Part shown: in pieces, positions 30,638 to 58,922 of the stretch
Layout of the letters: each line of letters opens with the position of its first letter
Numbering within the stretch: the first letter of the stretch is position 1
NCBI GenBank assembly: GCA_004794785.1
Contig: SJOL01006586.1
Coordinates: 1,984,569-2,048,568 of the forward strand
Source: Opisthorchis felineus
Taxonomy: Eukaryota > Platyhelminthes > Trematoda > Opisthorchiida > Opisthorchiidae
Direction of reading: 5' to 3'
DNA length: 64,000 nt
Made by a program: the position numbers and the translations under genes
Notes under the pieces: generated by a model
Seen by the model: only the letters and a program-made list of their open reading frames with translations
The model's database searches: none
What the model was told of the DNA's origin: nothing

Positions 30638-30928
30638 CAGATGCAAATTATGAGATAGCTCAACCTGTGATCACGAATGTCACCCTTACGAGCGCAGGTG
30701 CAGTCGTGTCTTGGTATGTACCCAGTCTGGTTCCAATGGAACGACACGAAGTCACCTACAAAGGATCGGACAATACCGTTGAAACGATCGCCGTGACAGG
30801 AGACCGAAGTGATGCACTGCTCCTACTCATAAGGCCATGTGTTAATTACTCTGTCGTGGTGCAATCCTTCAGCCGGACTTCTCAGTCACCCGAGTCTCTC
30901 CCCGAGGAATTCTCAGGAAGATTGTTAC
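30638..30928 (+). CDS. Gene A, FN3 exon 1
   Basis: A 291 nt exon (97 codons) in phase 1-1. It lies between an acceptor TTGGACTAG|CA and a strong donor C|GTAAGTG. The encoded domain reads QPVITNVTLTSAGAVVSWYV, then EVTYKG, then RPCVNYSVVVQSFS, the B, C and F strands of a fibronectin type III fold with the core Trp in VVSW and the F-strand Tyr. It has the first-position Cys (RPC) but lacks the CGWS-type Cys found in later domains. There is no counterpart for this domain among the recognised exons of gene B. No upstream start exon was identified, so it is not necessarily the first exon of the gene. Confidence 0.8.
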
Positions 30929-33382
30929 GTAAGTGTAGGCTGTCATAACAACGTCGTCTATCGCGCTTTTTAATTAATACGACACATGATGGGCCAAGCA
31001 AATGGTATCACTGATCTGAATTCGTGACAAATGTGAGTTCCGTGGCGTCTGCGGTATTATCAACCGTGCTGTTGGGATGTGTACACTAGATTCCATAAGA
31101 AATATACCCTTGAGGCTTACCGAGACACAAGGAAAGGATGTCCCTTAATTGTAACTGGTGAGTATAACAACAGGCGTAGAGTGAGAAAAAGGTTACTTCT
31201 ACTCTGGATGAGCATTTTTTGCGAGTAGAATAGCTACGACAGGTCGATCAATTCATACATATATACATGAAACACTTCTTTGGTCCCAACACGAGTTGAT
31301 GTCCCTTGGCCATGTATATGTGCACGGTACACCAAAATATTCCTGCTTGCGGTAGTCCATCGACTTCATTTACATCATAGCCTAATGGGCCTGGATCTCA
31401 TGCATTTTGTGCCGCAATTCATGGTACACGTAGATGACCTCTATTCAGCATGAGCTATCTAGGTTTTGGGGTTACTACCGTCGTTGGTAACACCCCTTCC
31501 GTTGGTTTTCGTACATCCAGGTTGAACGAAAAGCATCAGTGAGCAGTGTGAATGATAAGTAACGTGTGGGTGTTGAAAAATTTTGTTGCCTGAATTGCCG
31601 TCCAGATAGCTTCAGTCGGATTTGAGGGACAGGGAGGAGGCAAATCATTCTTGACATTTTCATAAATTGTTGATCTAGAACAGGTTATAAATGACACTTT
31701 CGAGGTCAAAAACGAATAACGTTTAGATAAATTTGTTGTCCCGTTTGAAGTATGACCTCCAGTGGTTAATTAATTGAGGGCGGAATTTAAGATGCTGAAA
31801 ATCTCCTCAGAGGCTCGTTGCATTCTAAAGAAAAAAAACTGAAGAGACCATGTCACACCTGTATTTTTTGCATACCCAGTAATGGAGACTGCTATAAAAA
31901 AACAGGTCATGTTCACTCCACTTTTTACTCGACTGAAGCTTAGTTGTATCATTCAGTTTACAAGAGTTGTATGCTCGTGATTTGTCCTATCGTACAGCCT
32001 GCGAAACTTTTACCCTAATACTTTTTTCTGGATTTTGAATGTGTTTTGATCTATATAGTCGAAATTTTCCGGTGTAAATCTCAAGGCAGTGAAATACTAT
32101 TCTGTCTTCCCATCACGAGGAACGGTCGAATTGGCAATTTTCTTGGAAGTAAGCTCTGTTTTGGGGAGATAAGCGGGTAGACTTTGTAGGATCCCTTCGC
32201 ATGGCCGAAGTGGACACTAATTGAGTTCTTCAACAAATTCACCATAATAAGACTGGAAGTGGTCACGGGTTCAGAGGGGAGATTTTTGTTACCAACAACC
32301 ACCATATTAGGTGAATTTGACGATAAATGCATCTGAACGTTGTTTACCAGGGTAAAACATTCCGGGATTAAACAAAAGAAAAACACAACATGCCTCTAAC
32401 GTACTACTTTTGTCGGTTGGCTGTGATTTTCATGATCATCCGCTTTTCTATCCCCACTCTTTCGAAAACGTCAACTTTTTCGTTGCTCTCTACCCAACTT
32501 TTCCTATCATAGAGCGTACAGACTATTTAGAAAACACATCAAAATATGCTGAGACTAGCATCTAACTTAGAGTTCATATGTTTGGCACTAGTCATATGGG
32601 TGTTTCATTGAGATTATATTCCGTTAGAGCAGTCTTTACAGTGCTCCACATGCTTTAAGGAGACCACAACTTTTCAGGCAATATTACGCATCCGAAGGCC
32701 GCTTGAATTGAAGATTTAGCCTAATACGACGTACTTAGAGCCTTTAATCCTGAAACATGCACGCGTAATGCGACGTTTCATTAAATAAATTGGCCTTGAT
32801 TATGTTTCTTCAGTGCCTGGTGCATGCAAAACGTCAGTTACCTACACTTTTTTCCTGTCGCCAAAGAGTGGACTAGGAAAGAATCACCCTAAATTGTGCC
32901 CCTGTGTGAATGTCGTTGATGGAAGCAACGGGCACCGATTTGACTGGTTTTAAACGGATACTGTTATCCCAGGTAAAAAGTCAAAATCACAGTTTTGAGT
33001 ACGGGTTAGCTTATGTACAAAAGTTACGTTTTAATCTGATTGACCAGCCTTCCGTCTTTTCGAAAGCACTTCTTTCGAGAGGTGTTCTGTTCCTCTTAAT
33101 TCAAAAAAAGTGGGACCAACTCATTTCGCGCTTCTAATGAAAACGCATCCTTCTGAACGGCGGTACTCTACTTCGACAACATGGTATTGTTCACACAAGA
33201 AAACATCTGAAATGGGTGTGCCTATTTATTTAAACCAGGGGAAAAACAGATACTGATTCCATATTGGTGTCCTTAAGTTGCATGTTGGGCGTTACTAAAT
33301 TCTAATACAGAGTGTAATCATCCGTACTGTTAGCCTGTCGCTGAAATGCAAATATTTGTTCTCTTGGTGTCGTTCTGCTCAG

Positions 33383-33661
33383 CCACCCCGTTATCTCCCA
33401 TCAATTTGTACGTCGAAACTGGCCCGACCGGAAGGTATTTATACTGGGAATACCCGGGCGACATAAGCTCGGTTAGAAAGTATAACATCTATGGTTATTC
33501 AAACACAACCGTCAGCGAGCACCAATCTGTCCTTTCAAATGCGAACATGGCCGATTTGGTGCAGTTTCCTTCTGAACATCAATTCCTTCTTTGGATGACT
33601 GCAGAAAATATGTGTGGCACTTCCAGTAAATCGATTCCGGTATTTTTGAATGCACTCCAAG
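33383..33661 (+). CDS. Gene A, FN3 exon 2
   Basis: A 279 nt exon (93 codons) in phase 1-1, after TTCTGCTCAG and before G|GTAAGTTT. The FN3 features are SPINLYVE, a core Trp in YLYWEY, VRKYNIYGY, then LLWMTAENMCGTSSKS, the F strand and F-G turn with the family's second-position Cys. The best match is the gene B exon at 58644-58922; both share KY after the Trp, a FxxEH segment and AxNxCGxSxxS. An in-frame ATG with a hydrophobic stretch lies just upstream (33346), but it is the pyrimidine tract of the acceptor and should not be read as a signal peptide without transcript support. Confidence 0.85.
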
Positions 33662-34225
33662 GTAAGTTTCTTCTGCATTTTTTCTTAAACAAGCAGGTTT
33701 GTGAAAAACCGGTACTTTTTATTCTATTTTTTATGACAGACATATAGAGACAATTTTCACAATGGAGTCAGTTTGCAAGCATGTATATGCAGGAGCAAAT
33801 AACTACTTTAGTATTGGTAGTCACACTAGAAATATCCAGCAGAATATGCATATACGGGCTGTTTCAAAGAGATACTTGTCACATGCTTTCTGGTTGCAGT
33901 GAATACGTGAACGGTAGAGACGGGAGGCTTATCGGAATTCCGACTAACTGACACTTAGACTCTGGATATAGCGCCACTTACCTTTCAGTGACGGTATCCA
34001 TATCCTCAGTCTATAACTACTCAGATGGGAATTTCACCCATTGTATCACATTTTCTCCATTTCGCGCTACATATAGATTTTTAGGAATGTGGAGATATTC
34101 GAGAATTCTGATAGAAATTTCGTCCTATATATGAACCTAATCTAACCCAGAGCCACTGTGCAGCCGTTTCCTCCCTATCGGAAATTATTACTGGTGCCAT
34201 CAAAATCTACCAATTCCTTGCACCG

Positions 34226-34400
34226 ATGCCCTTCAACTCACAAGGCTGATCAGCCACTCGTTGCCAAATGTTTGTGTTCAAACACTGGACAGAAGGTTGC
34301 GGGTTTGTGAGATTTGCACTGCTGAAGATTCCAAACTCGGATGAAACAGCTGAACAGTGATTATCGGCTTTTAAGCGTGGATTGGATTCACTGGCGCAAT
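34226..34400 (+). mobile_element. tRNA-derived SINE with hammerhead-like tail, copy 2
   Basis: A decayed head (GTTCAAACACTGGACAGAAGG, then TTGCGGGTTTGTGAG) is followed by the hammerhead segment and TTATCGGCTTTTAAGCGTGG. It aligns block for block with the copies at 28.8 and 44.0 kb. It lies in the intron between gene A exons 2 and 3, in the sense direction. Confidence 0.6.
34316..34360 (+). ncRNA. Hammerhead-ribozyme-like motif in SINE copy 2
   Basis: The best-preserved layout in the window. GCACTG (34316-34321) can pair with CAGTG (34355-34359) as stem I. CTGAAGA (34322-34328) fits CUGANGA. TTCC/GGAT can form stem II, and GAAA lies at 34343-34346. A palindromic ACAGCTG provides a minimal, loopless stem III like that of schistosome hammerheads. 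The cleavage triplet reads GAA instead of a GUH triplet, so this copy should be inactive. Confidence 0.6.
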
Positions 34401-35239
34401 GAAAACCCTATTGAATTTAAAATAAGGCTTCCAAATCGTTCAAGGTCAAGCTGAGCTGAAGCAGCACGAGATTATTTATAAAAGCACCCGTTAGATTGCC
34501 TTTCTAATACACAACTTGACAACATATTGCAGGGGACACCAATGCCGAAGGCCTCTAGGTGAATGCATTTCATCGGTACTGTATTATGAGCTTGTTTTTC
34601 GCTTGTTCTGAATTGGTTTTCAGTGAAACAGTAAGGATGGTTGTTTGGCGGCACCAATTTCAGCTGCTTAGCGTGCTTGGCAAATACTTCTGGCCCTGCT
34701 TTTGTGAATGAATTTCTATCCGAAACACTTATGTTTTTCATGGGATAGAAAACTAAGCTTTTGGTACTGTCCAGTCCAGATAGGCCTTCCCTGAATACGG
34801 TGAGACTCAGTACCTCGCGGTTGAAATGTGCAAAATCGGGATTTGTTCTCTGTCTCAAACTCACTCATGGAAAACAAGCTTTGTTGGTGTGTTACCAATT
34901 AAGAGTAAACGTTCAGCTTTTCGCCCAAAATGTATTTAGCTCAAGTATTGTTCATTCAAATGAAATTGCTGAGTGTGATTTTATGTGGATTACTCAAGCT
35001 TCAAGCCAAAAATATCCACCTATTTCCGTCCCAACGAAATCCCCATAGTGACACTACCGAAGTGTCACATTGGTGTCTCTGAAGCAAACTCAACTGCTCG
35101 CGAAACACACATTTGCACACCAATTTGGCTTTAATGAGAGGCTCAACTGAAACCGGCCGAATCTGTCGTTTTGACAACCTTCAGCTGAATGCCCAATAAA
35201 AAACTTGCCTTATTTTTCAGTTGATATAGCCATAAGTAG

Positions 35240-35485
35240 TGTGTTATGCCGTGATATCTAAAATATCGTACCAACTGATGGATGAGTTGGTCTTTGTGCA
35301 GCACATCCAGTTCAGTCTCTGGTGAACATCCACGTTGTTCTAAACTGATTGCATTTTGCCAATCGCGTACAATTTCGTGTTTGAGTATGACAAAGATTTG
35401 TGGAGACTCGAAAACTTCGCCTACCTGCTAAGCCCCAAGAAGCGGTCGTGAGCTGCCGAATAGTTTTCAGCAACCCTGTGAGTAA
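35240..35485 (-). repeat. Interspersed repeat family 1, minus copy
   Basis: Reverse complement of the family blocks. CGCCTACCTGCTAAGCCCC and AAGCGGTCGTGAGCTGCCG near 35430-35455 correspond to the GACCGGTTTCGCCC core region, and GTGCAGCACATCC near 35296 corresponds to the other half. It lies in the intron between gene A exons 2 and 3. Confidence 0.65.
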
Positions 35486-35559
35486 TATGCTACGTTAATA
35501 AAGGTACTATATCCCCTCAATAAACATCAGTTTTTGTGCCTTTCCATTGGACGCACTGT

Positions 35560-35765
35560 GTTAGGAAGTTCCCAGTAAGCTGCTCGATTTCGTCGTCAAT
35601 AAAACAAAGTTTCAGATTGCCTGTGGAAATTTATGAATCAGTTACATAGCATAATGAAACAGTGTAGTCTGGCGCACCCTCAAAAGACCAGAGGCACAGG
35701 CGCTGCGTCGTACGACAACAGTGACAAAATATGTCTGACACTGGAAATCATACTAGACTTTTAGG
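35560..35765 (+). repeat. 210 bp direct repeat, copy 2
   Basis: Partner of 30124-30330, with the same ordered blocks (AGTTCCCAGTAAGCTGCTCG, TTTCAGATTGCCTGTGGA, GTGACAAAATATGTCTGACA). The flanks outside the ~206 bp are unrelated, so the boundaries are fairly sharp. Confidence 0.8.
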
Positions 35766-36489
35766 ATTACGTATGAATTAAAGACAACAGACATTTTCGA
35801 ATTGAAGTTTAGTGAGTGTCTTGTTTACAATCAGTGAGAAATACAAATGAACAAGGGACCTGAAGCAGGCTTTTATCACGAAAAGCTCCAGATTGGTATG
35901 AAAACTAGTGATTTACTTCCCTTATCTCACAAAAAGTGTGTCAAATGGAAAAAAATAACGCATCATTTTAGCAAAATGCAAAACTTCCCCCTAATATGCA
36001 AGCGAAAAGAACACCGTTTGAAGTGTCTAGCTGGTGCTCATACGCCATGAATACTAAGTTGCCTTTTGTGACTACTATGATCTATCATTGATCTACTAAT
36101 AATCCTAGGATCTTAGTATCGTGACACGCTTGGTAGTTTTACTATTCACCAAGGAACTATGGGCTCGTCAAGCGCGATATTGTTCTGAACCGTTGGACGT
36201 TAGCCGGACTAAAACCCTTTCATAAAGATGCAGCACCTTTGTCAATCATCACTGTAAGAAGCTGTCTATCAAAATTGTGTTCCGAGCCGCTTGTTCTCCC
36301 TATAGTAACGCGCGTCCACAAGGCGGATTTCATGCCCCCATGGACGCCTAAACTGGCTTTTCGGTCATTTGCATGCGAGTAATTACGCAGCACGCACACA
36401 GTTTACGCAGTCTATACAATGTTCGATGAATAAGTAATTTGCTTTTTATAGAGGAAACTACTCACAAGGTTGGTAAAAGCTCTTCCACA

Positions 36490-36700
36490 GACCATGACCG
36501 GGTTTGCCTTTCTTGGGGTTTATCAAATAGGCGCAATTCCCGAGTTTCCATCAACCTTATATTCTAGTTGAACACAAATTGCACGAAATTTGATAAATAC
36601 ACTCATGGAGCGACCTGTTGCAGCACATTCAGCTGAAGAATATCATGAACGACAGATCCATTCGGGTCTCTCGTGAAAGCTAAATTGATATGCAAATGCG
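36490..36700 (+). repeat. Interspersed repeat family 1, plus copy
   Basis: Contains GACCGGGTTTGCCTTTCTTGG, CCCGAGTTTCCATCAACC and GTTGAACACAAATTGCACG in the family order, then CTGTTGCAGCACATTCAGC and ATATCATGAACG. This copy shows that the two halves seen separately elsewhere belong to one element. Confidence 0.7.
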
Positions 36701-36783
36701 AAGGGAATCAATTGTTTTTCCGTCACAGCTAGACTTAGTCAGTTCGATTGCTCAAACCTCACAATTAAGGTGCATTTAATGTG

Positions 36784-36870
36784 CCCTGGTGGAGTAGTAG
36801 AAACACGCACGTCTCATAGGTCAGATTTTCGGGGTTCAACTTCCAGCGAAGTCAGGGATATGCGCCGTTG
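36784..36870 (+). mobile_element. Decayed tRNA-derived SINE
   Basis: TGGTGGAGTAG is an A-box relic one base off consensus, and GGGTTCAACTTC 42 bp later is a B-box relic one base off. AGCGAAGTCAGGGATATGCG follows. The layout is that of a tRNA-like SINE head, but the copy is degraded. Confidence 0.5.
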
Positions 36871-37520
36871 ATTACGTATATTCAAGCACAACTCAAGTCC
36901 AGTGATTCCCTCCTCTGGTGTGAACTTACCAGAATAGTTATGCCCGGACTAAAGAAGAACTGTTTAAATGAGTGACGTAACTATAACGTCTTAAACCTAG
37001 CAGCCACCGATAACAAATTCCGTTTGGGTTATTCATGGTAGTCAGAAGAGGAAACTGGTGAAAAACACAAGCTACAGTCAGTTTTTTCGGTAGTGAGGTC
37101 AAATGAGGAGGCTAAACGTACGACTGACGGTTTTTATCAAGTCACTCTCGAGTTACGGATGCAACTTTGACGGCTGTTTTAGCCATGTTATTCGACCGGA
37201 TCGGCGGATTCGTGCCTTTTCTTGCAGTTTCAAAAAGAACACATACCATACCAATAAGCCCGTACTTTGGCTCAAAGAACTATTCACAGATTTAGATACT
37301 AACCCAGCGTAATCCGGCTTTAAACATTTCTGAGTGGGAATTCTCCCACAAAGCTCTGTGGTTGGGGTCTTACTGAAAACCACGTTTTTGGAGGGGTAGA
37401 AGGGAACAACTGTCTTGCAACGAATTTTTTACACCATGAAAGTAGTTAGTTAAGCTCGGAAAACCAACGCCAAAGTGGATTTCTATCCCATAGGACTATT
37501 TGTAAGATAGCATGCATACG

Positions 37521-37544
37521 TTATATATATATATATATATATAT
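37521..37544. repeat. (TA)12 microsatellite
   Basis: An uninterrupted TA dinucleotide run in the intron before gene A exon 3. It is probably polymorphic. Confidence 0.95.
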
Positions 37545-37736
37545 CACTCAGGAGGGCGGTTGCAGTGTCAGGCAACGGGCCTTTTTGATAAATAGTACTA
37601 CCAGGTATGCGTAACACCAGATATTCACACTAAGTTATCAATGTCAGTATGTCTACTCTATAGTTGCAGTACTGACCTGTGCCCCCAAAAATTCTTTCTT
37701 AATTTAGGTTGCTGGTTGCCTTATTTTTTTTCACAG

Positions 37737-38015
37737 CTCCTGGTCAACCTAACGTCATTAATGTAAACTCCGGCCCCAATTCCATCACTATTTGGTTCGA
37801 GGCTAATCTCGAAGGTGGTCCAGTCAGTAACTACCGGATTCGGTACACAACCCCCTTGGGAGACCAGAATATCACCGATCTACCGGGGGATAGCACCGAA
37901 GTTACGCTGACCGAATTCCTTCAGTCGTGCTTCAAACATGAAATTTGGTTGTACGCGGAGAACGTCGCTGGGGAGTCGCAACCTTCTTACCTGTCGGCAT
38001 TTATCAAATCTCAAG
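37737..38015 (+). CDS. Gene A, FN3 exon 3
   Basis: A 279 nt exon (93 codons) in phase 1-1, after a strong pyrimidine tract TTTTTTTTCACAG and before AAG|GTATCC. The domain reads QPNVINVNSGPNSITIWF, NYRIRYTTPLG, then QSCFKHEIWLYAENVAGES. It has the first-position Cys (QSC) but Ala in place of the second. It is clearly the partner of gene B exon 56461-56724, with which it shares NTITI-like, YxTPxG, QxCFxHEIxLYA and AGES segments. Role inferred: one repeat of an extracellular FN3 array. Confidence 0.88.
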
Positions 38016-39566
38016 GTATCCAACTTGAAGTGGATCTCCAGCTAGTACTCATTCCGCTGTTCATCTACGTTTTGGACTGAAATATTCGTCACTCAAAAGC
38101 TCTTCAAACGACAGTTCTTTCAATTAATGTCCAACTTTAAACTATCTAGAATTAAAGAGGTGCTTCTTCCCAATAATATCTTTTCGTACATGCTACTCAC
38201 AAACTGTCTCCAGCGGTACACTTCTTTTTACTAGGACAAAAGCGGACATACGGACAGCCGGGAAAATTTTACTCAGACACCCTGGCTCTTCTTTTGAATA
38301 TCCTGGCGTCCTAAGGAGAGCTTCAGCACACAAGAACTTCGTCGCTGCCCAGTGATAACATTACATCTGCGCGTTAGAATGACCATTTGCAAGTTTAGCG
38401 TACACCAAGATGTTCGAAAGTGTGCAAATATGTGTACACTGCTTCTTCAGAATCACCCCAGTTGAAAGAGGATATCAAAAGTGCACAAAACACGTGAAAA
38501 CTCATGCTGATATTACTAACCATTACGTCATTTCAGGTAATTCACTAAACCTTTATAAAAATGCGGATAAATTCGGGTGCAGAATCCTTGCGATTATGAG
38601 TGGAAAATACAGCTAAACTTAGAATGAAGACAGCTCTACGGCAAAAGTCGCCTCTTCTTTTCCGGAGCCTCGAATTTTTGGACATACCAACACTACATCA
38701 ACAGATTTCTTCGATGTAATCTCCCGAAATGAAATTCTCGAAGGGCACTTGTTCCGCTGAATACTACAAAACCGGGTTTCTTATTAAGCATGACTTACTG
38801 TGCGACATGTCAAAACTGCAGTCACTTAAAGAAATGGCCAACTTCTCACTCCCGCGGTGATAGACGTCCTCTAGGATATTGCTCACCTCTGGAGTGATAA
38901 ATGTAGCGTGGTTAATTCCAGAACTAGCGTTATTTAAGACAGAGTATGGGCGTTCATTGGGTGTTGAGAAAATTCGACAATATATCCCAAAGACAATTTC
39001 TCACATAAAAAGGGGCATTTTACCCCCTTACAGTTGTGAAAAGTTTAGAGCCATTCATGGCCAACATTTGGCTTTACTGTATAATCATACGAGTTTTCTC
39101 GTCTTGGGAGTTTTCCTTTGAAGATTACTACACGTTGGTTCCACCAAAGAGAGTATTTCGAAGAAAACGGCCTTCTGATTGGTGAAAGATTACGTTTCCT
39201 TATTCGTTAATGGGAAGCTTAGGGTTTGTAGCAGGAAAGGCGAACAACATCACAAACGAACGATTTTTCCTAATCTTTATGGTGCTTGTTCTTTAGAGGG
39301 ACGACCGTGAATCCAAAAAATCACAACATCTTCAAGCATCCCCAAGTCATACACGTATTTTCACCGACTACGCAGACGGGGCGAAGATAAAGAGGACACA
39401 GGCTTTGTTGGGCGACTTTTAAGTTGCATTTTTTTGTTACAGTTCGACTGATATTTATGAAGTGTAATCGGTAAGTAACATCAATTTTTAAACTACCCCT
39501 AACCTGCTCCGAAACTGTTCAATCCAGTTTCCACTCTCTTCTCCACCCCCGAAATAAAAAAATAAG

Positions 39567-39845
39567 CGGTACCGGGTTCTCCATTTCTGAAACCAATTAT
39601 CTACTTCAATGGGAGGTATATCGCTCGATGGAATCCGACTTCCGCAGATGATATCTACGCGTATGAACTCTGGTGCGAAACAGAGGCGGAATCTCCAAAA
39701 ATCTTCAACATTGAAGATAACTCCACGCAGGCTGATCTGGAAGGCTTAACTCAGTGCACTGTGTACACTGTTTCGATTCGTGCGCAAGGCAGTTGTGGAT
39801 GGTCGGAATTTTCCAACTCGGAAACATTTACTTCTCGACCACCGG
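39567..39845 (+). CDS. Gene A, FN3 exon 4
   Basis: A 279 nt exon (93 codons) in phase 1-1, with donor G|GTGAGTG. The acceptor AAAAAATAAG is unusually poor in pyrimidines, but the frame, the length and the VPGSP start fit the family. Motifs are IARWNP with the core Trp, YAYELWCE, then LTQCTVYTVSIRAQGSCGWSE. It has both family cysteines, separated by 12 residues, exactly as in gene B exon 53192-53470. No long open frame begins with ATG here; the exon is recognised by domain content and splice borders. Confidence 0.8.
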
Positions 39846-40664
39846 GTGAGTGCGGCGGTATTTTAGTAAAAGAAAATTGTACTATCTATCGTTCGCGTAA
39901 GTAACCAAAGTGAGTTGGAAATACATGAGAAGTAGTACAAACAGATGTTACTAGCAAGCATTCGTAATTTTGAGTTTTTTCGTAGCAGGCTAACACCCTG
40001 AGGCAAGGATTTGCTTCCACCTGTGTCTATCGTTTGCTTGACTTGTAGCCTAGCGTGGTGAGTAATGCTCTGTAAAGAGCAATGAAAAATTCGGCGCGAT
40101 CGCATTCGTAAGAAGTGGAGTTGCACGATTCTCGTTACAACTACTTTTTTATACTAATAGATCGCTAAGCGGTCATCAGTACACTTGACGGACAAGGCCT
40201 GTACCAAACCACGGACTCTGAATCAATTTTTATTTTGTTTGTGGAATTAGCGTTTAGACCACATGAAATTTTTTAATATGAGAGGGTTTTTCACTTGAGC
40301 CTCAAGATATTGGCCATGTGACCTTTTGATTGGCCGTTTAGACTGTTGACTTTGGGACCATGCGTGGACCCACCAGTACAGAGCATTCAGTTTTCTATGG
40401 GACATTAGTTGACGACCATGAGGAGTCGGAGGCATATGCGTGCTTCGAAGGGAAATCACTCAGTGTATGCATATAAAAGTATCACATTTAATGTCTTGTA
40501 AGCTCTGTACTCTATTTTTTTTTGCTTCATCGACATGGAGAATGAGAAGTAAATAAGTGCGCAAAGTTCGCTTGTGTGCTCCTGCTCGCCGTGCTCTCAA
40601 CTACGTTTTCCAGAATGTCCATAGCCTGGTGTCAACAGATAATTGTTTCCTTCATTTACAACAG

Positions 40665-40963
40665 ACACTCCACGTACGCCGGTAGACTTGTCCGCTTCGG
40701 GAACTGCTTCCCAGTGCATAATCACCTGGAGCAAAGGCGATCCGCATGAACTACTTTGGGAATACGAATTGGCTACTGAAAATCAGAACTACGACTCAGT
40801 GTTTTACTGGGTACCGCCGAATGCGACACAATACACTTTGAGGAGTCTTGATCGTCCCAGCAAGCAGACCGTATACTTGTGGGCAAAGAATGCCTGCGGA
40901 TGGTCAGCGGAGGCAACACTTAGTCTTTCTGTCAGCGACACCGGCGCCATATTAATTCAGTAA
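40665..40963 (+). CDS. Gene A, FN3 exon 5 with stop
   Basis: Starts after TTTACAACAG in phase 1 and runs to a TAA at 40961-40963: 99 codons including the stop. The domain reads TPVDLSASG, CIITWSKGDP with the core Trp, WEYELATE, then TVYLWAKNACGWSAEA. The AKNACGWS segment is identical to gene B exon 50083-50360. No good GT donor lies where the other exons end, so this is read as the terminal coding exon, with eight residues after the domain. If a later donor is used the gene would continue, but no further FN3 exon was found downstream. Confidence 0.78.
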
Positions 40964-42110
40964 CATTAAGTTCATCATCGGACTGTGTGAAATTTAACGC
41001 AGAATGTGGTGGTAACTTAACAGTACTTTTACCCATGAACTGCCCCTTCTTAACGTATTAATTTTTTCGCACCGCAGTTGGCAGTAAACTATTTCAGGGG
41101 TCTCTGCCAGTCTTTGTTTCCCTCACAAAGAATACTCGTCAAGGGGAGTTCCCTCAAAGTGAATAGTTATTTACTTCTGTCAAGCTATTTCGCTGTTCAT
41201 TTGTCCAGTGCATTCAAGAACCAAGAACTTTCATTTTTTGAAGCAAAGCTACTGACATGACGTGGGATTTCGACATTTATTAAAAAGGAATGCAAATCCT
41301 AGATATGATTGTTGGCCTAACCGGTTGTTAGAACGCCATCCGACTTCTAATGAATATACAGAAACATCCGCCCTCACGGAGGATCTGGTAATTACCGAAA
41401 TACCCACCTGAAGTTTGTTTCGGTGTTCACAGCAAACGTGTGATTAGATCTGGAAAACGCCAGCCACAAAAAATCTCTAAGCTCTATCAGGACTCATCAT
41501 TTAGGAGTAAAAGCACAGAACTTATGTAAATTCAGTCAGCAGTTCCACACCTAAAATCAAATTCACCAAATTGGCAAACCTCACACTCCAAATGGCAAAT
41601 GGAAAACTCTTTGTGCGATAACATTTTGATCCAGAGGACTTAGATCCTCTTGAAAATATCACTGTCCACAAAATCAACATAAACTGTTTGCACTACTCAC
41701 TCAATGCACCTGGCTGGCAAGCCGATCCTTTACGTTATCAATCGTGGTGGTCAAGTTTGACAGTGCTGCACTGGCACAAAACAATGCGAAGAATGTAGGA
41801 GTGGACCTATATAGGCAGCCACTAAGCAGAAACGAGCTTTATCGAAATTGAAATACATCATGGGGACTCCACTTGTTTACCATCCACGTAAAAAGGCTCC
41901 CTTGCTGCTCAAATCTGGTTACCATATCGGTTACTTGAACTACACAACTTTGTTGGTAGACCAACATAGGCAAATCAGAGCAGAGTCAGCCCAATACAAG
42001 AGCCCGTTTCTCTATGTGACCGAAGAGAAACTAATTCTCCAAATACTCTCATTTGTATACTAATTTGGCCTTGACAGGAAACTCAGCAGGATCCAGCTTA
42101 ATCTCACGTT
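40964..42110. other. Probable 3' flank of gene A; no gene
   Basis: An ATTAAA at 41279-41284 is a possible poly(A) signal 316 nt after the gene A stop. Nothing else is recognised. Confidence 0.3.
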
Positions 42111-42119: not shown

Positions 42120-42490
42120 CTACTTCAACTGAATGTGCTGCACGAGGCCACTCCATGTTTCAGTTAGTACGATACTGGAGATATCGCAATACAACTTCTG
42201 GGTGTAACACGTAAGGTTGTGCGGCCCTGTACAGCACATTTGGTTGAAGAAGTCTATCATGAACGAGAATTTCAACTGGATTCAGTAGGGTCTTCCGTCA
42301 TTACGAAATGAGTATGCAAATAAGAGTATTTGATGAATTCTAATCAATTTGGGTTCTGGTGGAACATAAAGTTGATAGAAACTTGGAGTCTGTGCCTAGT
42401 TGATGAGCTCCAAGAAGGGCGAAACCGGACGTGGGCTGCCGAAAAGATTTTAGCAAGCTTATGAGTAGCGCTTTACGTATAGAAACAAAT
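42120..42490. repeat. Interspersed repeat family 1, half copy (+) and minus copy
   Basis: The plus half at 42120-42200 contains TTCAACTGAATGTGCTGC and TTTCAGTTAGTACGATA. An opposite-oriented block at 42330-42490 carries the complement of the core (GGGCGAAACCGGACGTGGG near 42417, GGAACATAAAGTTGATAGAA near 42360). The inverted arrangement suggests two insertions or a rearranged one. Confidence 0.6.
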
Positions 42491-46710: not shown

Positions 46711-46714
46711 GAAT

Positions 46715-49595: not shown

Positions 49596-49599
49596 GATT

Positions 49600-49800
49600 T
49601 CCGGTGGAAGATCTCGTTTATGGTATTCTTCAACTGAACTTGTTGCACAACTTAATTTTCAAATGAGTTTATTTCGTCATTTACGTAAAAAAGGGGGTTG
49701 CAATAGAATATACGTTTAAAATAAACTCGGAGGTATGCCTACCTGATGAGTATAAGGAAGGTGAAACCAGCAGTGGGTTGTCAAATAGTCTTACAAGTAG
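49600..49800 (-). repeat. Interspersed repeat family 1, minus copy
   Basis: Reverse complement of the family: TATTCTTCAACTGAACTTG near 49624, GCCTACCTGATGAG near 49737 and GGTGAAACCAGCAGTGGG near 49760, in the order expected for a minus-strand copy. Confidence 0.6.
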
Positions 49801-49970
49801 TGAGCTACGTCACATTGTTGTTTGTTCCCCTTTTTCCTTGTTAGGCGAGAGAAAGCTGTGACGAGGATCTCATCAGTTGTCTAACATTTTCAGTATTCAA
49901 ACTGGTCAATCAGTAGACGGGAAAATCCGCTCTCGACCATCTCAAAAATATTCAGACTAAAGCAAACGCA

Positions 49971-49976
49971 TTTATT
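49971..49976 (-). promoter_or_regulatory. Candidate poly(A) signal of gene B
   Basis: TTTATT on the plus strand reads AATAAA on the minus strand, about 107 nt after the gene B stop codon. The position is plausible. AATAAA is common in A/T-rich sequence, so the assignment is tentative. Confidence 0.4.
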
Positions 49977-50082
49977 TGTAGAGGTCCTGTTAGAATAACG
50001 TTATTTCTGATCATCATTTTGACAAAAGTATACGGAGCTATGCGGTTGAGTATAGCAAAGTCTTTTGAGGAATCGTTTGCTG

Positions 50083-50360
50083 TCAGGCCACCGGGACAAA
50101 CCGTGTTACACTCGATTTGGACCAGCCGCAGGCGTTCTTTGCAAATACACTGACGTGTTGCGTGGTTTGCAGGTCTGCGCCGTCAACATCGAATGACTGG
50201 GCCTGGCCCGACACGTAGAAGGAACGAGAAAATCCTGTGTCATCGACAACCATTATATCGTATTCGGTTATCCATTCCTGAGGGTCGACTGTTGGCCAAG
50301 CGACGTGTAGAGCGGTTTCATTTTCGGTTGCTTCAACAGCCAAAGGGGCCGATGGACCTT
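50083..50360 (-). CDS. Gene B, last FN3 exon with stop
   Basis: Starts after TGTATTTTTACAG in phase 1 and runs to TGA (50085-50083): 92 codons including the stop. The domain reads APLAVEATEN, HVAWPTVDPQE with the core Trp, ITEYDIMVVD, then HVSVFAKNACGWSKSS, and it ends VPVA. It pairs with gene A exon 5 (shared W..x..DPxE, EY and AKNACGWS). Like that exon, it stops just after the FN3 fold, so the protein ends without a visible membrane anchor. Confidence 0.85.
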
Positions 50361-50581
50361 CTGTAAAAATACAAGAGAGTGTATGGTTTGCTTTCTAATG
50401 CCCACAACAAAGTTCGAAAATAGTTAGTAAAAAGATAATTGGTTTGAAAGGCTGGCTATTCGGTTCATGCGAAAAGTGACTGTTACTATTAATAACATGT
50501 TTTCAGTTTTGCTAGCAATGGAGATCTTTGAAAATTGTGAGAAAAATTGAATCCATGCATATCAGCTGCCGTAGTTTTTAC

Positions 50582-50678
50582 CTGGGACTTCCCTGATGAA
50601 ATACAGATATAATGACAAAGAGATGATGAGGATATTTGTCATAAATAAGCTTGCAGAAAAAAATCTATATTGTAACAT
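50582..50678 (-). CDS. Candidate alternative leader exon upstream of last gene B exon
   Basis: From ATG (50678) the minus strand encodes 32 codons, MLQYRFF… with a hydrophobic core NILIISLSLYLYFI, to a donor CCAG|GTAAAA in phase 1. That fits the phase-1 acceptor of the 50083-50360 exon across a 221 nt intron. If real, it would give a small secreted or anchored protein with a single FN3 domain. The evidence is only frame and hydrophobicity, in A/T-rich sequence, so the call is weak. Confidence 0.2.
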
Positions 50679-50684
50679 ATTTTC

Positions 50685-52185
50685 CTACAATTTCAATCAA
50701 ATTTTGCCATTTCGAAGTAAGAAGGAAGCGATTGATATCCATTAAATTGAAAACTGACCTTTCAAGAGAGCATGCTTTGTTTATGGGAGATTAACAGTGT
50801 GCTGTAAAAGATGCTCATAGCATGAAAATGACATCCGATGAGACCCGGAACTTTAATCGATTAGATTCCAAAAACAGATGACGCCTGTCGTGAATGCGTA
50901 AAAATTCAATGCAGGTGATAAGGCTTCTAGCCAAATGTGTACTACGGTCGAGAATTGTAGGAGCGCTTAAATCACAGGATGTTACCGCAGTTTTCCCCTT
51001 GTACTCATAAGGTAAGAAGTCTCTGGAACGATGGGCGTCAGATTATAAGAGAAAAATGAACAGTGACGATACATTGTACACTGGACATACAACCGGTATA
51101 CGGCTAATTCATTCATGGAAAGATCACTTTAATGGACCGGCGGAAACTGACTGCTTATCCATAGATTCTTGTTGAACAGAAGCCGAAAACCCGAGTCCGC
51201 AGACCATTACAGATAGAATCTGCGACGGACATTCATTCTAACCGACATGTAGTTGCTCAAACCAAGTGACGGCTGAACCGTGAACTCTTAGGCAGATGAT
51301 TGTCTTTCCCCAATTACATTTCGCTTTGCTATCACCAATTCCACTGCGTATGAGACTTGTAGGGCCGTTAACGATTCAACATGAGACTGCCTGATTCGAC
51401 GGTTCAGGCGTGCTATTCGAACATTCGTAAGACCAACTCATCCATGAGTTGCTCAACTCATGAGATGGCAGGCGATAATTTATAATCCTATTGAAGATTG
51501 GCCGAGTAATCAGCTGTGCATGTGAGACATTAGATCGGGATAAATTAACTGACAATAAACTGACCTGGGAAGGTTTGATCAGGATTGAATGGAAGAACGC
51601 GGCTGCAGGATACTGTCAGTGTAATTTGTGTACGACAGCTATTTGACTATGGATTCAATTATGGTTCGTTTTGAACAAGTTGTTGAGCAGACCAAAGTCA
51701 AGAATGCCGAAATAAAAGAGATTTACACACATGACTTGTTTTTTATAGCTGTGGGTTACTGTGAAGGGAAATACACAGGGAGCTTTGATAAATCTGCAAT
51801 TACCCTGCTGTTTATAAATGACCGGGACTACTGCAAATTTGTCCATTATTAATACATATTAGTGGTTATCCTGTCTTTAGCGATCATGGTAACCTTGTTC
51901 TGAAATGAAAGGTCAAGATCACAGATGAGCTTGTTCTTGAGGTCTGGTGAGGATTTATAGATCTGGCTGGCGGATCCATGCAAATACATTATAAGACCAA
52001 TAACCGCGTTTAAATTATTGCAATGTTTCGGTTCAGTACGATCAACGAGCGTGATTTTTTAACAGTAGTCTAAAAAGAAATCAGTAACTGGTCTGCCCTC
52101 CGAGAAATGTACTGATCTGAACAGCGATTTTTTTCTCGGGGAGATTCAAGTGAACCCCGGTTGAATCTCTCCTCTCTCTACAACT
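50685..52185. other. Intron of gene B; no exon recognised
   Basis: No FN3-like segment was found on the minus strand. A small palindrome lies at 51433-51463. A 74-codon plus frame (51628-51852) has no known motif. Confidence 0.4.
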
Positions 52186-52189
52186 GGAT

Positions 52190-52450
52190 GTGCCGTGCAA
52201 AGGCTGCCTCGTGTTTCATTTGGTACGATATTCGAGAAATCGAACTACATTGTCTTAAATGAAAATGTACACATTGTTGCTAAACCCCATGACCGGTTTC
52301 GCTCTTCCAATTTGGGCTCGTCAGACAGGCGCAGCCATCGAGTTCCCCCCAATCTTATGTTATACCTGAACCCACATTGTACGAAATTCACCAGATACAC
52401 TCATGTACAAACCAGTTTGGTTTTTCCTGGTGACTCAACCTTCGAAGAGC
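52190..52450 (+). repeat. Interspersed repeat family 1, plus copy
   Basis: GCTGCCTCGTGTTTCATTTGG and GTACGATATTCGAG (first half) are followed by GACCGGTTTCGCTCTTCC near 52291, CAATCTTATGTTATACC and CATTGTACGAAATTCACC. It shows both halves of the family in one contiguous copy. Confidence 0.7.
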
Positions 52451-53191
52451 TTCAGCAACTTTTTGAGTAGCTTCATGGTCTACTTTCCGTTTATAGCCTT
52501 CATGATGGGTCATTTTGAGCAAAAATGCCCAAAAGTGTTGCGTGACTTTTTACGTATGTAGAGACAACTTAAAATTCTTTAATCAAACAGACAAACAACG
52601 CCTTGTGGTAACCACACGATGTCCAGTTTGTTGTCAACGTATTTTGCGGTCGGTTTGAATAACGTTTATTCGAATAAGGCTACAGAATTTTATGGTTTGT
52701 CAAGCGTAAACTCGCTACTGGAATGGACTCTGTGACTTCGTCAATAAAAAACACTGCAGCAACTTGTTCGTCCATCGCCAGACCTGTAAGGATTGGTTTT
52801 CCTTATGCTACCCATGAACTCATAGTTTGCATGAAAAGCACGTAAATTAAGGCAAATTTTCGAGCGCAAATGCTGCATATGTGTTAAAATCGACAACTAA
52901 TTGTGAGCATCAGCCATAATAAACAGAAACACGCGAATATTGAAAAAATTGATTAACATTGCAATTCAACCTAGTAAAATCCATCCTGACTTCTGAGTCT
53001 AACAGTTCGGTAATGTCACCTGAGATATTTTCACAGTTAAATTACCTTTCAATTCTGATCCACTTAAAATTTCCAAGACATCAAGAAACTCAAGACAAGT
53101 AGGCCCATCCGATGTGAAATACCGTCGGTAGAAAAAATTACTGGTGGAAAATATTTAGAATCAATACTTTGGTTATTCTTTGGACACCTAC

Positions 53192-53470
53192 CTGTTGGAG
53201 GAGCTTCATAGATAAATGGCGGTGAGTCTGAAGACCATCCACATTCATTTTCCGACCTCACTCGGATATCGTAATGTTGGCAGCCATTCATATCCCTAAG
53301 TGTGGCTGCTCTCGCTCCTCCAGGTACATGAGTTGTGAAGGATTCGCCAGTGTTTGTAGTATATTCAACAATGTGGCCAACGAGAGGTCTGTTTGATGAA
53401 ACTGTCCAGTGTGCAGTATGTCGTCTCCCTGAAGTTGTGATGTTTATAATTTCTGGTTTGTCCGGTACTT
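53192..53470 (-). CDS. Gene B, FN3 exon (partner of A exon 4)
   Basis: A 279 nt exon (93 codons) in phase 1-1, between TGTGAATTTCAG and G|GTAGGTG. The domain reads VPDKPEIINITTSG, TAHWTVSS with the core Trp, HIVEYTTNTG, then MNGCQHYDIRVRSENECGWSSD. It has two cysteines 12 residues apart followed by GWS, the same arrangement as gene A exon 4. It ends YEAPPT, matching the SRPP end of its partner. Only part of the exon is open from a Met; the rest is recognised from the splice borders. Confidence 0.87.
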
Positions 53471-53474
53471 CTGA

Positions 53475-56455
53475 AATTCACAGTGATATCAGCGGTATTG
53501 CTAACAAAATTACTTGTTGATGTTTACCTTCACTTGTTCCAGTCGAAACACTTTTCGGTATAAGATGCTTCCTTTTCCCTGAAGCGTTGTTCAACCGTTT
53601 ACTAGAAATTTCGCTCGCATGCACAAAGTCGATCTGATCTGATAAGTGACTGGCTACTATTTGGTTCATGCTAGTTTTACTGTCAAATTGATATAGGTTG
53701 ATTAGAATCCATGGTACAGAACGTGATGTGCTGTTTGACAGTTAATGAAAAAATGTGCTTCATTTCGAGAACTGGACGGGGAAAAACGGATCATAACGCT
53801 CATTTTACGTGGAAGTCTGAAGGGATTCATTCTCATCCATGCGTGGCACACAGACGGGAGATGATTCACCAAGGTTGCGGATCACATTATCTCACGCCAT
53901 ACGGGCTCCCAGATGAAATTATAATATTAGAGAATTCGTACTGTGTTTCGAGAGAATTATCTGGGTTAAGACTCTGATTGTACTTCTAGCCCTCCGTACG
54001 GTGTTGCTTGCTTTGTCTCAGCTGACGCACCGGTATCAACGTAATGAATTTTCTTCCATTAGTTCAGCCATACTGTAAGTTTATATTGGCCCTTAATCGA
54101 GCCGGAAATAAGGCACGTTTGATCCATTTAACCCGAGGTGGCTGCCGAAAAGAAAGTGTCCGGGTGCTTCGAGCAACTTTTTCAGTACATTTTAGCATAC
54201 TTTTATTTTAGTAACGTGAACAGAGCCTAAGAGAGAATTTAACTACCATTTGCCAAGGCAATCTAGGTCGAAGGCTATTTCTTTGATAAACTGAGAAACA
54301 TTCACAGTGCCAAAGGCATTCAGAGAAAGCTTAAGTGCGTGAACGACGCTGAATTAGGCCATAATATAAAACGATACAAGTATCAAACGCAACCGCAAGT
54401 TTTCCGTCAGTGGCACTACTTGTGAACAACCTATTCAAACTGTTCTGTCTTATCGAAACTGTCATCATTCAAAACTTTTCGAACACTCAATTGAGAGAAA
54501 AGGCCGCTCAACGAAAACAACTCTTGCTGGTAGTGTGAGGAGATTTGGTAGATTTGGGTTGAAATTCCCCCCCCCACACACACACACGCACACCCGCAAG
54601 TGGAGCCAATCTGTTCTGAAAAGCCAAGAAACACGGTACGGCTGTTTCCTCCTTATTGGGAATCATCAAGAGTGTGCTTCTCACAAAACTTCAAAGAAGT
54701 TTCTGACCCACGACTTTCAGGCTATCAGCTGAACACAACTCTTCGGCTATGAACGGTTGGTCAGCAGTGCGATTAAGTCACCTTTAGAGAAAATATGGCA
54801 CCGATCATCATTTACTCACGGGATCCATATCATCTGGTCACACGATTGACTGGCTCCATAAGCAACGACTTCTCAGAGAGAAGTCTCACTCGTCGATAAA
54901 TTGTGGAAAAAATAATAAGAAAGATAGGATAGGTATTTTTAGCCCTACAAAGTGCACACCTTTCATATAATGCACTCATAGGTCATACGGTAAAATCATA
55001 ACTAACTGCAGAGCTAGAATTAGTTGTCACGTCCCCACGAATTTCAAACTGATGTATTAGAATTACCGATCCTAATACACTTCACTGGTATCGTCTAACC
55101 ACCGGACTTGTTCTCCGGGAAATGTGAAGGCGAGAACAGTAGAATGGGATAAACCAAGTGGAATGGTAAGATGCGCACATTTGTTTAATTCTGAAGTTCT
55201 GTTGTTTGGTTTATGCAGGCAAGCCAAGATGTCATTGTTTTGATGTAAGATCACGGATTAGATGCATATCTGGTTATTTACTACGCATGTGTAGCGCTTT
55301 GAGGCTCATATTAGTAATTATCGCTCCATATTTAGCCCAGTTGCACATCTATCCAACGTTATTTTTGGTGTTGAGCTACTTAGGACATATAAGCTGGAGA
55401 AAACGGAAGCAAATATATCTAACCGTGCGCGTACACTCTGTGATTATAGAGGACCCAGCTCCGAGCCCGTGCATCATCGAAGGGTGGGTTTTAAATCCTA
55501 CTTCCATTATGCTGGTGCATTTGGCCAGGCTGTGTGAAACCAAACTTCAAATGAAAGCTTCAGATGGTATCAGTAAGAAAGAACGAACAGTGTAACACAC
55601 TAAGAAAGTTCCCCAAATATAGGTATGTTTACAAAAAGGGAGCGAAATGGACTAGACTGAAAGTTATTTATATTATAAGTGACAGACTGCCTTCCAAAAA
55701 GACGCTTTCAGGAAGAGAGCATCCTTGCCACCCAGATTGAGAAGTACCTTTAGCACATGTGCCGAAACATTTTCACAAGTACTGTTTTGGCAACTCAGCT
55801 GGGGCGGTAGTAATGGGTATCCGCCCGAAAACTGAAGGTTTGGTTATCAGTAATGACATTCGTATAAGTGAATCAATACGGGCAAGCAATATAGTTTCAG
55901 GACCCTATGGTCTAACCATTGGTTAAGTGAATCATTCATCCCATGGAAGTGATATTATGGAACGCTTGCACATGCACCGAACCGAATCGAAATGTGATCA
56001 TTTTATTTCAGTCTGTATCGGAATTTCATCCGGCAATCAAGTGTGCCCGATTAGGAGATCAGTAAAGCAGGACTCAAATGGAAACTAGGACAATCCGCAG
56101 CTTTCATCCTTGCGTTTTATCCGTTTTAGTTCATCAGTGCGTACTGAATGATACTCCACCGTAACAAGATATACCATACACTTGCTAAGGAATGATAGCA
56201 ATGGAGAGTGCATACTAAGAAAGCATCCATAAGAAAGATGCTAATGACTGTTTCCAAAAGCTCATTCTTAGGGGACACAAATGGGCCTTATTTAATACAT
56301 TGATAATTATGAAAATGCCCAACGTCCACCTCAAAATCTTGGAGAAAATGAACGTGCATGTCAAGTAGTATGCTCAGTGCAAATAGTGAAAGTAAGTTCA
56401 GACCGATTTTGATTCAAAATTTGATTCCTTAAATGAAGCAAGTCACTAAAATCCA
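53475..56455. other. Intron of gene B; no exon recognised
   Basis: Holds a C9/(CA)n stretch at 54567-54592 and a relic of repeat family 1 near 54130-54200. A GTGAGTAAA donor-like site near 54815 (minus) has no acceptable open phase-1 exon in front of it. No FN3-like sequence was found. Confidence 0.4.
54567..54592. repeat. Poly-C/(CA)n microsatellite
   Basis: A run of nine C followed by alternating CA, interrupted once by CG. Confidence 0.9.
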
Positions 56456-56460
56456 CTCAC

Positions 56461-56724
56461 CATTTGACGATGCATATGCATGTATGATAGTTGCGTCAGA
56501 CTCTCCGGCAGCACTCCTTGCATATAGGTAAATTTCGTGCGCAAAACACGGCTGGATTCCTTGGCGAAGCGTCTCTGTGCCACCTGCATCAAAGTTTTTC
56601 TGCACATATCCTGAAGGCGTGGAATAATTGGCACGGTATTCCACACCGTCAGCTGGTGCTGCTAGGTTAATGGTGATAGTGTTCACAGTGGAGCTGACCG
56701 AGAGCACTTCAGGAGGTTCTGGAA
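56461..56724 (-). CDS. Gene B, FN3 exon (partner of A exon 3)
   Basis: A 264 nt exon (88 codons) in phase 1-1, after TACTTCTTCCAG and before G|GTGAGTGG. The domain reads PEVLSVSSTVNTITINL, YRANYSTPSG, then IQPCFAHEIYLYARSAAGESD. It shares the YxTPxG, QxCFxHEIxLYA and AGES segments with gene A exon 3 but is five codons shorter, mostly around the C-C' region. It lacks the usual core Trp (INL instead of IxW), as does its partner (IWF). Confidence 0.88.
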
Positions 56725-57722
56725 CTGGAAGAAGTATCAAACAAAATTACCAAGCCGATATATTTGTAATTAAAGGGTCTGCTGGTTCTTAAATTAAAAT
56801 GATAATTTTCCCTATAAGTGCCCGTGCGTGTCAAATATAGTTCGAAAGTTAAGAATGGAGTCAGTGCTTATGAACAGCCAGCAAAATCGAACGTAGTATG
56901 TGGTGCACTACGCCGTGACATTGCTTTATTGACCTAATTTAAACAAGAGTAGGTTTTCCTTCAGAATATGGCCCAGTTACCGAGACAACTTTTTGCCTTT
57001 TTCAGTGTACTGCAAACGGAGTTCCGGAATTCATACTACGAGGCTACCGAGTTCTCATAATCTCAACTTGCATTTTGAGCAAAGTTCAACATCATCTAAG
57101 CACATCCTTCAGAATGTGACCACCACGAGGAATGAAGGATTGGTTGCATCTGTCAAATTTCTAACAGGATCAAATACTATCATTTGGCTGACAGGGGACG
57201 TTGCGTTGGACTCTTCAGATTACTAGCCTTTCTTGAGAACAACTTCACCTGAGTTTTATTGTGCCCCAGCTTTCTTATTGAGAGAGACTATTTGCATGAG
57301 ATATACAGATACAGTGTGCCCATAGGATTTTTAATGCGCTGGAACCTAAGCGTGATTGCCTCCAAAAGACTGACGATTCTTTTTTGCAATTTTTGATCAG
57401 AGTGAAAGGCAAAAAGCTCCCCTGCTTAGGTGTATAGATAGGTTTCAGGCAGTGTTTTCGTCCTAATGAATCAGCATTCGTTGTTTAAGCAAAAAAATTA
57501 AGAACTTTTAATACATAGATTTTGGAGAAAAAATTTTCGCTGAAACAGGGAAGCATGAAATCAGACTTCAGCATTTTTATTTAGAGTTAATTATAACCGC
57601 TGACCATTTTGAATGCACATTCGTGGTGGGATGGAGCAACTCATAAGCCGGCTCACCGAACTACGGATTTTTTGACCTGTCTAAATAGTTGCACTTCAGC
57701 TCTACCTATGTAAGTTACCTAC

Positions 57723-57941
57723 CATACGCACGTAAAACAACAGAAGAGATTTGGTATGACTCGTCACTTTCTTGAAAATGAGCCTTTTGTTCATTTAAAA
57801 ACTGCACTCCACGTTGTTCATCAGACCAACATGAGGTAAAGTGCTGAAATTTGCTGATTTCATTGCCATCAGGGGGTGGAAGCCGGAAGCGTGTAAACGG
57901 AAGGCATAAAGCATATGGTTGACAGTTCTCCGATGGTTGAC
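57723..57941 (-). CDS. Gene B, candidate extra exon
   Basis: A 73-codon open stretch in phase 1-1 (219 nt) between acceptor CCTTTAGCAG and donor G|GTAGGT, in the right orientation between two certain FN3 exons. It encodes FTRFRLPPPDGNEISKF and YQISSVVLRAYG. The latter could be a shortened FN3 F strand, and PPPDG looks like a B-C loop. There are three cysteines (ENC, LCL, SCW). No equivalent was found in gene A. It could be a chance open frame. Confidence 0.35.
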
Positions 57942-58643
57942 CTGCTAAAGGCTCTTGTTCCGGTTTATTTATTCATTTGACATTCCCCGTAGTAACAGCC
58001 GAAAAGCTACATCGGCCTCTACTTGAAGCATCGTGCAACAGCTCAATTCTGTCTGCTCTGTTTTAGATTCTACTGAACGGGTCATTTTCAAGTTTCTAAA
58101 AATCCAACTGCAAAATTCTTGAAGAATGTTGAGCAGTCACTAATCTCACAGAGTTATTTAGTACCTAACTAATTAATAGCAAAAATTATTCCTAAACCAA
58201 GAGAAAAGAACTCCTTACCGACAGCAAAGCTTCGGACAGTTGAAATAATCATATCATCATCAGCTGTAAGAACAGCTGATTATTTGGAAATCCCTAATTG
58301 ACAATGGTACGTGCAATTCACGCATTCTCAACAACTTTCAGCTTTGCCACCTCTACTGATCTCATTGTAATGTTCTTTACTTAACAACATGAAAAATCAT
58401 GTTTCCAGAAGCTGCTTTTTTAAAACGGCCATGATTTAACTCGTCTTCCGGAGATGTGGATAAGAGGATGATTTTGAGTGAAAGCAAGTATCTGTCCTTA
58501 CTCAACCACAATGTGTTAACAATCATAAAATAGGATATTCAACAAATGAGTTAAATGAAGTGAAATACACTACTCGGTGAGGACGGGCATTGGTCTGAAA
58601 AATTCTCGATATACTGTCCCAGTCTTGATGCACTGATGTTTAC

Positions 58644-58922
58644 CTGCAACTGCGAATAACTCGATAGGTTCAGAGGCTTCCGAAACACCGCAGAAGTTGT
58701 CTGCGGTCACTGAGACGTTGTAGTTGTGCTCAAAGTGAAAATCTGTGAGTGCCAGGTAATTCACATCGGACGGCACTGATCGCTTTATTATCTCGCCGCC
58801 CAGCTCTTCTCCCGTGACAGTGTATTTGGATACCTCAAAGTGTGGTGCAACTGGAGTCCAGCTGATAGTTCTTTCAAAGTTCACAGTCTTCAGGAGGACA
58901 TCCGTTGGGGGTGGTGGTATTT
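58644..58922 (-). CDS. Gene B, FN3 exon (partner of A exon 2)
   Basis: A 279 nt exon (93 codons) in phase 1-1, after TTTATCTAG and before G|GTAAACAT. The domain begins IPPPPTDVLLKT, has the core Trp in TISWTPV, VSKYTVTGEE, then FEHNYNVSVTADNFCGVSEASEP. It carries the second-position Cys only. It matches gene A exon 2 over the SKY, FxxEH and AxNxCGxSxxS segments. This is the most 5' exon of gene B recognised; the upstream part of the gene was not found before the retroelements at 60 kb. Confidence 0.87.

Follow-up and report, generated by a model that had tools for sequence, protein, structure and literature searches.

We analyzed a 64,000-nt stretch of the genome of the trematode Opisthorchis felineus (assembly GCA_004794785.1, contig SJOL01006586.1, positions 1,984,569 to 2,048,568; hereafter the window, in whose own numbering coordinates are given), which contains two genes for proteins built of fibronectin type III (FN3) domains, here called genes A and B. 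Gene A runs on the plus strand to a stop codon at 40963, and gene B runs on the minus strand to a stop codon at 50083. The two genes are thus convergent with 9.1 kb between their stops, in agreement with a preliminary description of this DNA that had proposed a tail-to-tail inverted pair about 9 kb apart. The nine FN3 exons named or implied there are all present with usable splice sites and contain the motifs it had given; we label them A1-A5 for FN3 domains 1-5 of gene A and B1-B4 for FN3 domains 2-5 of gene B.

Gene A (30402-40963, plus strand) is predicted to consist of six exons, the first for the signal peptide and each of the others for an FN3 domain, and to encode 489 amino acids (aa). 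Exon 1 (30402..30447), carrying the start codon and the signal peptide, was located by tblastn with the Clonorchis sinensis protein CSKR_112240 and ends at the phase-1 donor GTAGGT; the preliminary description had the FN3 exons of this gene right but missed this one. Exons 2 to 5 were delimited by splice sites and encode domain 1 with an EF-loop cysteine (30641..30928; Pfam fn3 26.3 bits), domain 2 with an FG-loop cysteine (33383..33661; without a Pfam match, pairing with domain 2 of gene B at a z score of 11.5), domain 3 with an EF-loop cysteine (37737..38015; 32.3 bits) and domain 4 with cysteines in both loops (39567..39845; 29.5 bits). The first of these had been placed at 30638 and does exist, but length agreement with the C. 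sinensis ortholog makes a start at 30641 more probable. Exon 5 has a weak AAG acceptor, and the spliced protein aligns to CSKR_112240 across this junction free of gaps. Exon 6 (40665..40963; 20.5 bits, below the Pfam cut-off) encodes domain 5 with an FG-loop cysteine and the stop codon, ends at the same residue as the C-terminus of CSKR_112240, and adds no membrane anchor. The introns are 193, 2454, 4075, 1551 and 819 nt long. TATAAA occurs at 30355, preceding the ATG by 47 nt, and 316 nt past the stop, at 41279, there is a polyA-signal hexamer. A 218-bp direct repeat (85% alike) occurs just upstream of the gene (30119-30336) and in its third intron (35557-35768).

The part of gene B inside the window (58922-50083, minus strand) comprises four exons, which had been recognized before and are real, but which represent domains 2-5 of a gene that is incomplete here. 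Splice sites define B1 (58644..58922, domain 2; Pfam fn3 31.7 bits; 88% identical to CSKR_112241 of C. sinensis), B2 (56461..56724, domain 3; without a Pfam match; 91%) and B3 (53192..53470, domain 4; 28.5 bits; 81%), and B4 (50083..50360; 24.7 bits, just under the cut-off; 88%) encodes domain 5 and the stop. The counterpart of B2 forms seven strands in an AlphaFold2 model of CSKR_112241. Gene B and CSKR_112241 have an identical C-terminus position, and polyA-signal hexamers are found near the gene end at 49976 and 49673. The region upstream of B1 (58923..64000, minus strand) would be the long first intron of the gene, at least 5,078 nt in size, and includes a reverse-transcriptase open reading frame (ORF). 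When 58900-64000 was searched by tblastn, the best match to the CSKR_112241 signal peptide had an E value of 0.039 and lay on the plus strand, the wrong one for gene B, and the best match to its domain 1 had an E value of 0.87. The signal-peptide and domain 1 exons most likely lie beyond position 64000, outside the window, the alternative being that they were lost. The frame in the intron (61110-63878, minus strand, as gene B) is uninterrupted over 922 aa and matches RVT_1 at 5e-31; by eye, its end shows CCHC-like and PD..ID endonuclease-like stretches, of the kind known from R2/RLE-type retrotransposons without long terminal repeats (LTRs).

With splice sites picked from the candidates listed for each exon, an AG acceptor, a GT donor and a symmetric phase 1-1 reading are available for every one of the seven internal FN3 exons. 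A phase 1-1 exon to each domain is the arrangement typical of FN3 modules. Exactly 279 nt were counted in five of the nine FN3 exons (A2, A3, A4, B1 and B3), 288 nt in A1 and 264 nt in B2. Pfam fn3 (PF00041) matches seven of the nine translations at E<=1, five of them above the Pfam cut-off, A2 and B2 being the two without a match. A profile built from the nine exons, which by construction recovers them at 85-126 bits, scored no other open segment of the window (25 aa or longer) above 7.8 bits. The tRNA and Rfam scans of the window were both empty.

Gene A is orthologous to CSKR_112240 (443 of 489 aa identical, both proteins having 489 aa) and gene B to CSKR_112241 (476 aa, 88% identical over 365 aa), which has five FN3 domains behind an N-terminus resembling a signal peptide. 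Deposited as hypothetical or FN3 domain-containing proteins, the two share the domain architecture of genes A and B and differ from the window proteins by 9-12%. They align with each other from end to end at 27% identity, first domain included, and their consecutive locus tags suggest that the two genes have stayed neighbours in Clonorchis. Beyond these two, no close relatives were obtained from 5.8 billion proteins, within the word and length limits of the searches (one of which scored the 7994 candidates with the most shared words) and with the worm's own genome outside them; the larger expanded family suggested earlier for this worm is thus unsupported by these searches. Three distant FN3 proteins, P0002 (E 0.024), P0004 (E 7.6e-5) and P0005 (E 0.55), were given no weight. 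No paper naming either locus tag was found in a literature search that most subscription papers fall outside, nor was either gene mentioned among the listed matches on fluke FN3 proteins. The word 'fibronectin' is absent from the main text of PMC7538622 and appears once in PMC11732047, in the reference list; FN3 appears once in PMC2749447, in a figure legend about granulins.

The FN3 fold is indicated by the Pfam matches, by matches to FN3 structures in PDB, and by the AlphaFold2 model of CSKR_112241 (five rows, including three distant FN3 proteins; predicted local distance difference test (pLDDT) 84.8), which has five seven-strand domains. Both Clonorchis orthologs end with FN3 domain 5; no transmembrane segment and no Ig, kinase or phosphatase part was found in them, and in no 19-residue stretch after residue 30 does hydropathy exceed 1.49 in the one or 1.19 in the other. 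The signal-peptide-like N-termini and the lack of a membrane tail suggest that each gene would give rise to a soluble secreted protein, composed of a signal peptide and five FN3 domains, its chain stopping with the last strand or shortly behind it and lacking a transmembrane or glycosylphosphatidylinositol (GPI)-like tail.

After the signal peptide, CSKR_112241 contains exactly six cysteines, at positions 81, 188, 263, 355, 368 and 462. According to the model strands, three lie two residues before strand F, in the EF loops of domains 1, 3 and 4, and three lie two residues after strand F, in the FG loops of domains 2, 4 and 5. CSKR_112240 has the same six and, in addition, cysteines 334 and 408, which are lacking in gene B. 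Across the 19 domains of both species, an EF-loop cysteine in one domain is matched by an FG-loop cysteine in the next at all 15 neighbour joints, in that 11 have both cysteines and four, all between domains 2 and 3 (D2-D3), have neither. No register cysteine is found at the outer ends, that is, in the FG loop of D1 or the EF loop of D5. Inside the predicted pairs, the spacing is 105-107 residues in both Clonorchis proteins.

In the FN3 topology, the C-terminal pole of a domain carries the EF loop and its N-terminal pole the FG loop. As these loops sit at facing poles, the pairing that follows most naturally is by disulfides between neighbouring domains, D1-D2, D3-D4 and D4-D5, which in CSKR_112241 would be C81-C188, C263-C368 and C355-C462. 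Domain 4 has a register cysteine at either end of one strand, a distance presumably too great for a bond within the domain. We propose that the EF-loop cysteine, at the end facing the successor, would bond the FG-loop cysteine of the next domain, at the end facing the predecessor. Such staples would join D1-D2 and D3-D4-D5 and leave D2-D3 as the only unstapled joint, a putative hinge. The five domains would form a stiff extracellular rod, which may present its FN3 loops to a partner in the fluke matrix or at the host interface, like FN3 adhesion proteins. Tentatively, genes A and B may thus encode a pair of secreted two-segment FN3 rods (D1=D2, hinge, D3=D4=D5) with EF-to-FG disulfides at every joint but one; the paralogs would have kept this layout, with binding surfaces about 27% identical, and would perhaps act as partners where the fluke meets the bile duct of its host. 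For disulfides between the domains of FN3 arrays, the literature search described above gave no match among the papers listed, and precedent may exist.

By analogy with the EG95-type antigens of tapeworms, the two proteins might instead be host-directed surface or secreted antigens with a part in attachment in the bile duct or in immune interaction there, a role that we regard as conceivable and rather doubtful. The signal exon and FN3 exon of EG95, as laid out in the available excerpt of PMC2671473, resemble the module layout found here. However, the comparison is one of layout, and the EG95 of that excerpt carries a GPI anchor and a single FN3 domain, as against five domains and no hydrophobic tail.

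The six conserved cysteines are unlikely to serve intermolecular bonds, which would give homodimers, A-B heterodimers or polymers in place of stapled rods. Fibronectin itself is a disulfide-linked dimer, the neighbouring genes could be co-expressed, and the pairing within one chain is a prediction from register, all of which would suit such bonds. Dimer cysteines, however, require no register of this kind, in which EF and FG positions fall as neighbour pairs 105-107 residues apart in both Clonorchis proteins and D2-D3 lacks both members.

The relationship of the two genes was analyzed domain by domain. The spliced A and B proteins align at 30% identity over 359 columns (BLASTP, E 4e-48). Among the 120 ways to map A domains onto the four window B domains, the collinear assignment scored highest (415 versus 391.5 for the next), which bears out the one-to-one, same-order match noted earlier; the partner z scores are 11.5 for A2-B1 and 16.8 for A3-B2. 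In a maximum-likelihood tree of the 19 domains (10 from Clonorchis and 9 from the window; WAG+G4, ultrafast bootstrap), A grouped with its B partner in four of five cases, with support of 97 for D1, 92 for D2, 95 for D3 and 89 for D5. Forcing all five partner groups cost 0.54 log-likelihood units (lnL) relative to the best tree (p value of the approximately unbiased test (p-AU) 0.39). The preliminary description had named clustering of the A domains with each other as an outcome that would speak against it; the tree forced to separate A domains from B domains cost 43.6 lnL and was rejected (p-AU 0.0002). As the collinear tree fits and the gene-wise tree is rejected, the five-domain array was built first and the gene was duplicated later. 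FN3 arrays often grow through internal exon duplication, and the ungrouped D4 partners and some strong non-partner pairs (A1-B3, z 8.5; A3-B3, z 9.5) would agree with two arrays that grew separately, each gene multiplying its own domains in tandem, their shared motifs being due to convergence or gene conversion. Given the rejected gene-wise grouping, the four supported partner groups and the collinear order of the best assignment, such an origin is very improbable.

The partner exons are saturated with synonymous differences (pS 0.82 over four pairs), which are no lower than the mean of non-partner exon pairs (0.57-0.90, mean 0.77). When the A region was compared with the B region by blastn (word size 7), nine matches were obtained at E<=1, only one of which lies in partner exons. 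This match pairs 40883-40905 with 50142-50120 (23 nt, 91%, E 0.012) over the AKNACGW codons of domain 5 and runs in the inverted orientation, as expected. The remaining matches, placed by coordinate arithmetic, fall in introns or flanks and never join corresponding introns. The strongest, between ~36.5 and ~52.3 kb in the same orientation (E 9e-11), was discarded because it is due to a dispersed repeat also present at ~20.9 kb, and the second (E 5e-8) links introns that do not correspond, at ~34.3 and ~54.6 kb. The dispersed repeat, which is perhaps SINE-like (short interspersed nuclear element), measures ~120-160 bp, is 71-74% alike and occurs on both strands (20866-21033, 36445-36607, 42313-42467 and 52287-52405).

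Each copy is ~90% identical to its own Clonorchis ortholog and 27-30% identical to its sister copy. As each is far closer to the ortholog than to the sister and synonymous sites are saturated, the duplication is older than the split of these flukes. A segmental duplication of recent date, inverted and with introns and flanks copied along, which the inverted and adjacent arrangement, the equal domain order and intron phase and the 23-nt match would fit, is scarcely credible in view of this divergence, of the saturated partner exons and of the lack of any other exon-level match among the nine, high DNA identity across exons and introns being nowhere found.

Taken together, genes A and B are probably opisthorchiid paralogs from an old inverted tandem duplication of one gene that was by then made up of a signal exon and five FN3 modules, each in an exon of its own. 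The duplication would thus have occurred after the five-domain array had formed and before the split from Clonorchis. The inverted segmental duplication of a multi-FN3 gene that had been put forward holds as the duplication of a whole gene into an inverted convergent pair, but not as a segmental event visible in the DNA. Apart from the repeated cysteine pattern, this is an ordinary, old kind of gene duplication, and the disulfide staples are the sole element of specialist interest beyond annotation. Two 'hypothetical proteins' of the databases, from liver flukes whose group counts carcinogenic species among its members, can now be described as paralogs of definite architecture whose cysteine pattern lends itself to testing, and the gene models are completed in that gene A gains its signal exon and gene B is seen to want its first domain. 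If the staples are real, they would represent a simple natural design setting stiffness and hinge in FN3 rods; if not, the pair is an ordinary, well-preserved gene duplication.

Several points weigh against this reading of the pair. The gene structures are predictions from homology and splice signals, and the N-terminal exons of gene B were not found inside the window. The C. sinensis comparison uses deposited gene models, and the convergent orientation is that of the Opisthorchis window and would have to be assumed for Clonorchis. In the free tree, the D4 partners fail to group, and the D2 and D5 groups are under the 95 usual for ultrafast bootstrap. The cysteine pairing is predicted from register and model strand positions, not from distances; the predicted template modelling score (pTM) of the CSKR_112241 model is 0.46, which makes its interdomain geometry unreliable, and the model of CSKR_112240 (two rows) has a mean pLDDT of 54.6, poor in domains 1-2 and better only in domains 3-4. 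Cysteines 334 and 408 of gene A (Clonorchis numbering; domains 4 and 5) are kept in both flukes and have no assigned partner. By our own arithmetic, three EF and three FG cysteines in five domains would match the register by chance in 1 in 10 genes, and since the two genes are homologous, their matches are not independent tests.

Elsewhere in the window, several transposable-element remains were observed. Those of a Penelope-like element lie at 18012-19201 on the minus strand, with RVT_1 (7e-8) and GIY-YIG (3e-5) in overlapping frames. Direct repeats of 204 bp, 90% alike, at 23827-24030 and 26158-26361 flank an ORF matching DUF7083 (E 3e-20), which is presumably gag-like, and 23827-26361 is perhaps a short LTR-type element. 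A diverged direct repetition extends over 4555-8442, its copies being ~70% alike and offset by close to 2 kb.

Among known FN3 proteins, the rods of fibronectin type III 7-10 and LAR FN3 1-4 align structurally at 16-17% identity. The fluke proteins differ from these in having no RGD in either C. sinensis protein, a cysteine register between neighbouring domains, and five domains only. They likewise stand apart from FN3 receptor phosphatases and adhesion receptors such as LAR, neogenin and Dscam, which are defined by transmembrane and/or Ig and catalytic domains. The best 50 PDB matches listed per search included no secreted helminth FN3 protein, which is not evidence of absence. In the excerpts available, EG95 is one of a multigene family whose members have the signal peptide in one exon and most of the FN3 domain in the next (PMC2671473), and the cestode oncosphere antigens EG95, Tm16/Tm18 and TSOL18 have the signal peptide in exon 1 and most or all of the FN3 domain in exon 2 (PMC2671473, PMC2706984). 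As far as these excerpts go, genes A and B have in common with the EG95/TSOL18 class a flatworm origin, probable secretion, and the succession of signal exon and FN3 exon. Unlike the single FN3 domain with a GPI or membrane tail that marks the EG95 type, they have five domains and end with neither anchor nor hydrophobic tail, so that the relation, seen in sequence at the level of the FN3 fold, is one of likeness, not of membership.

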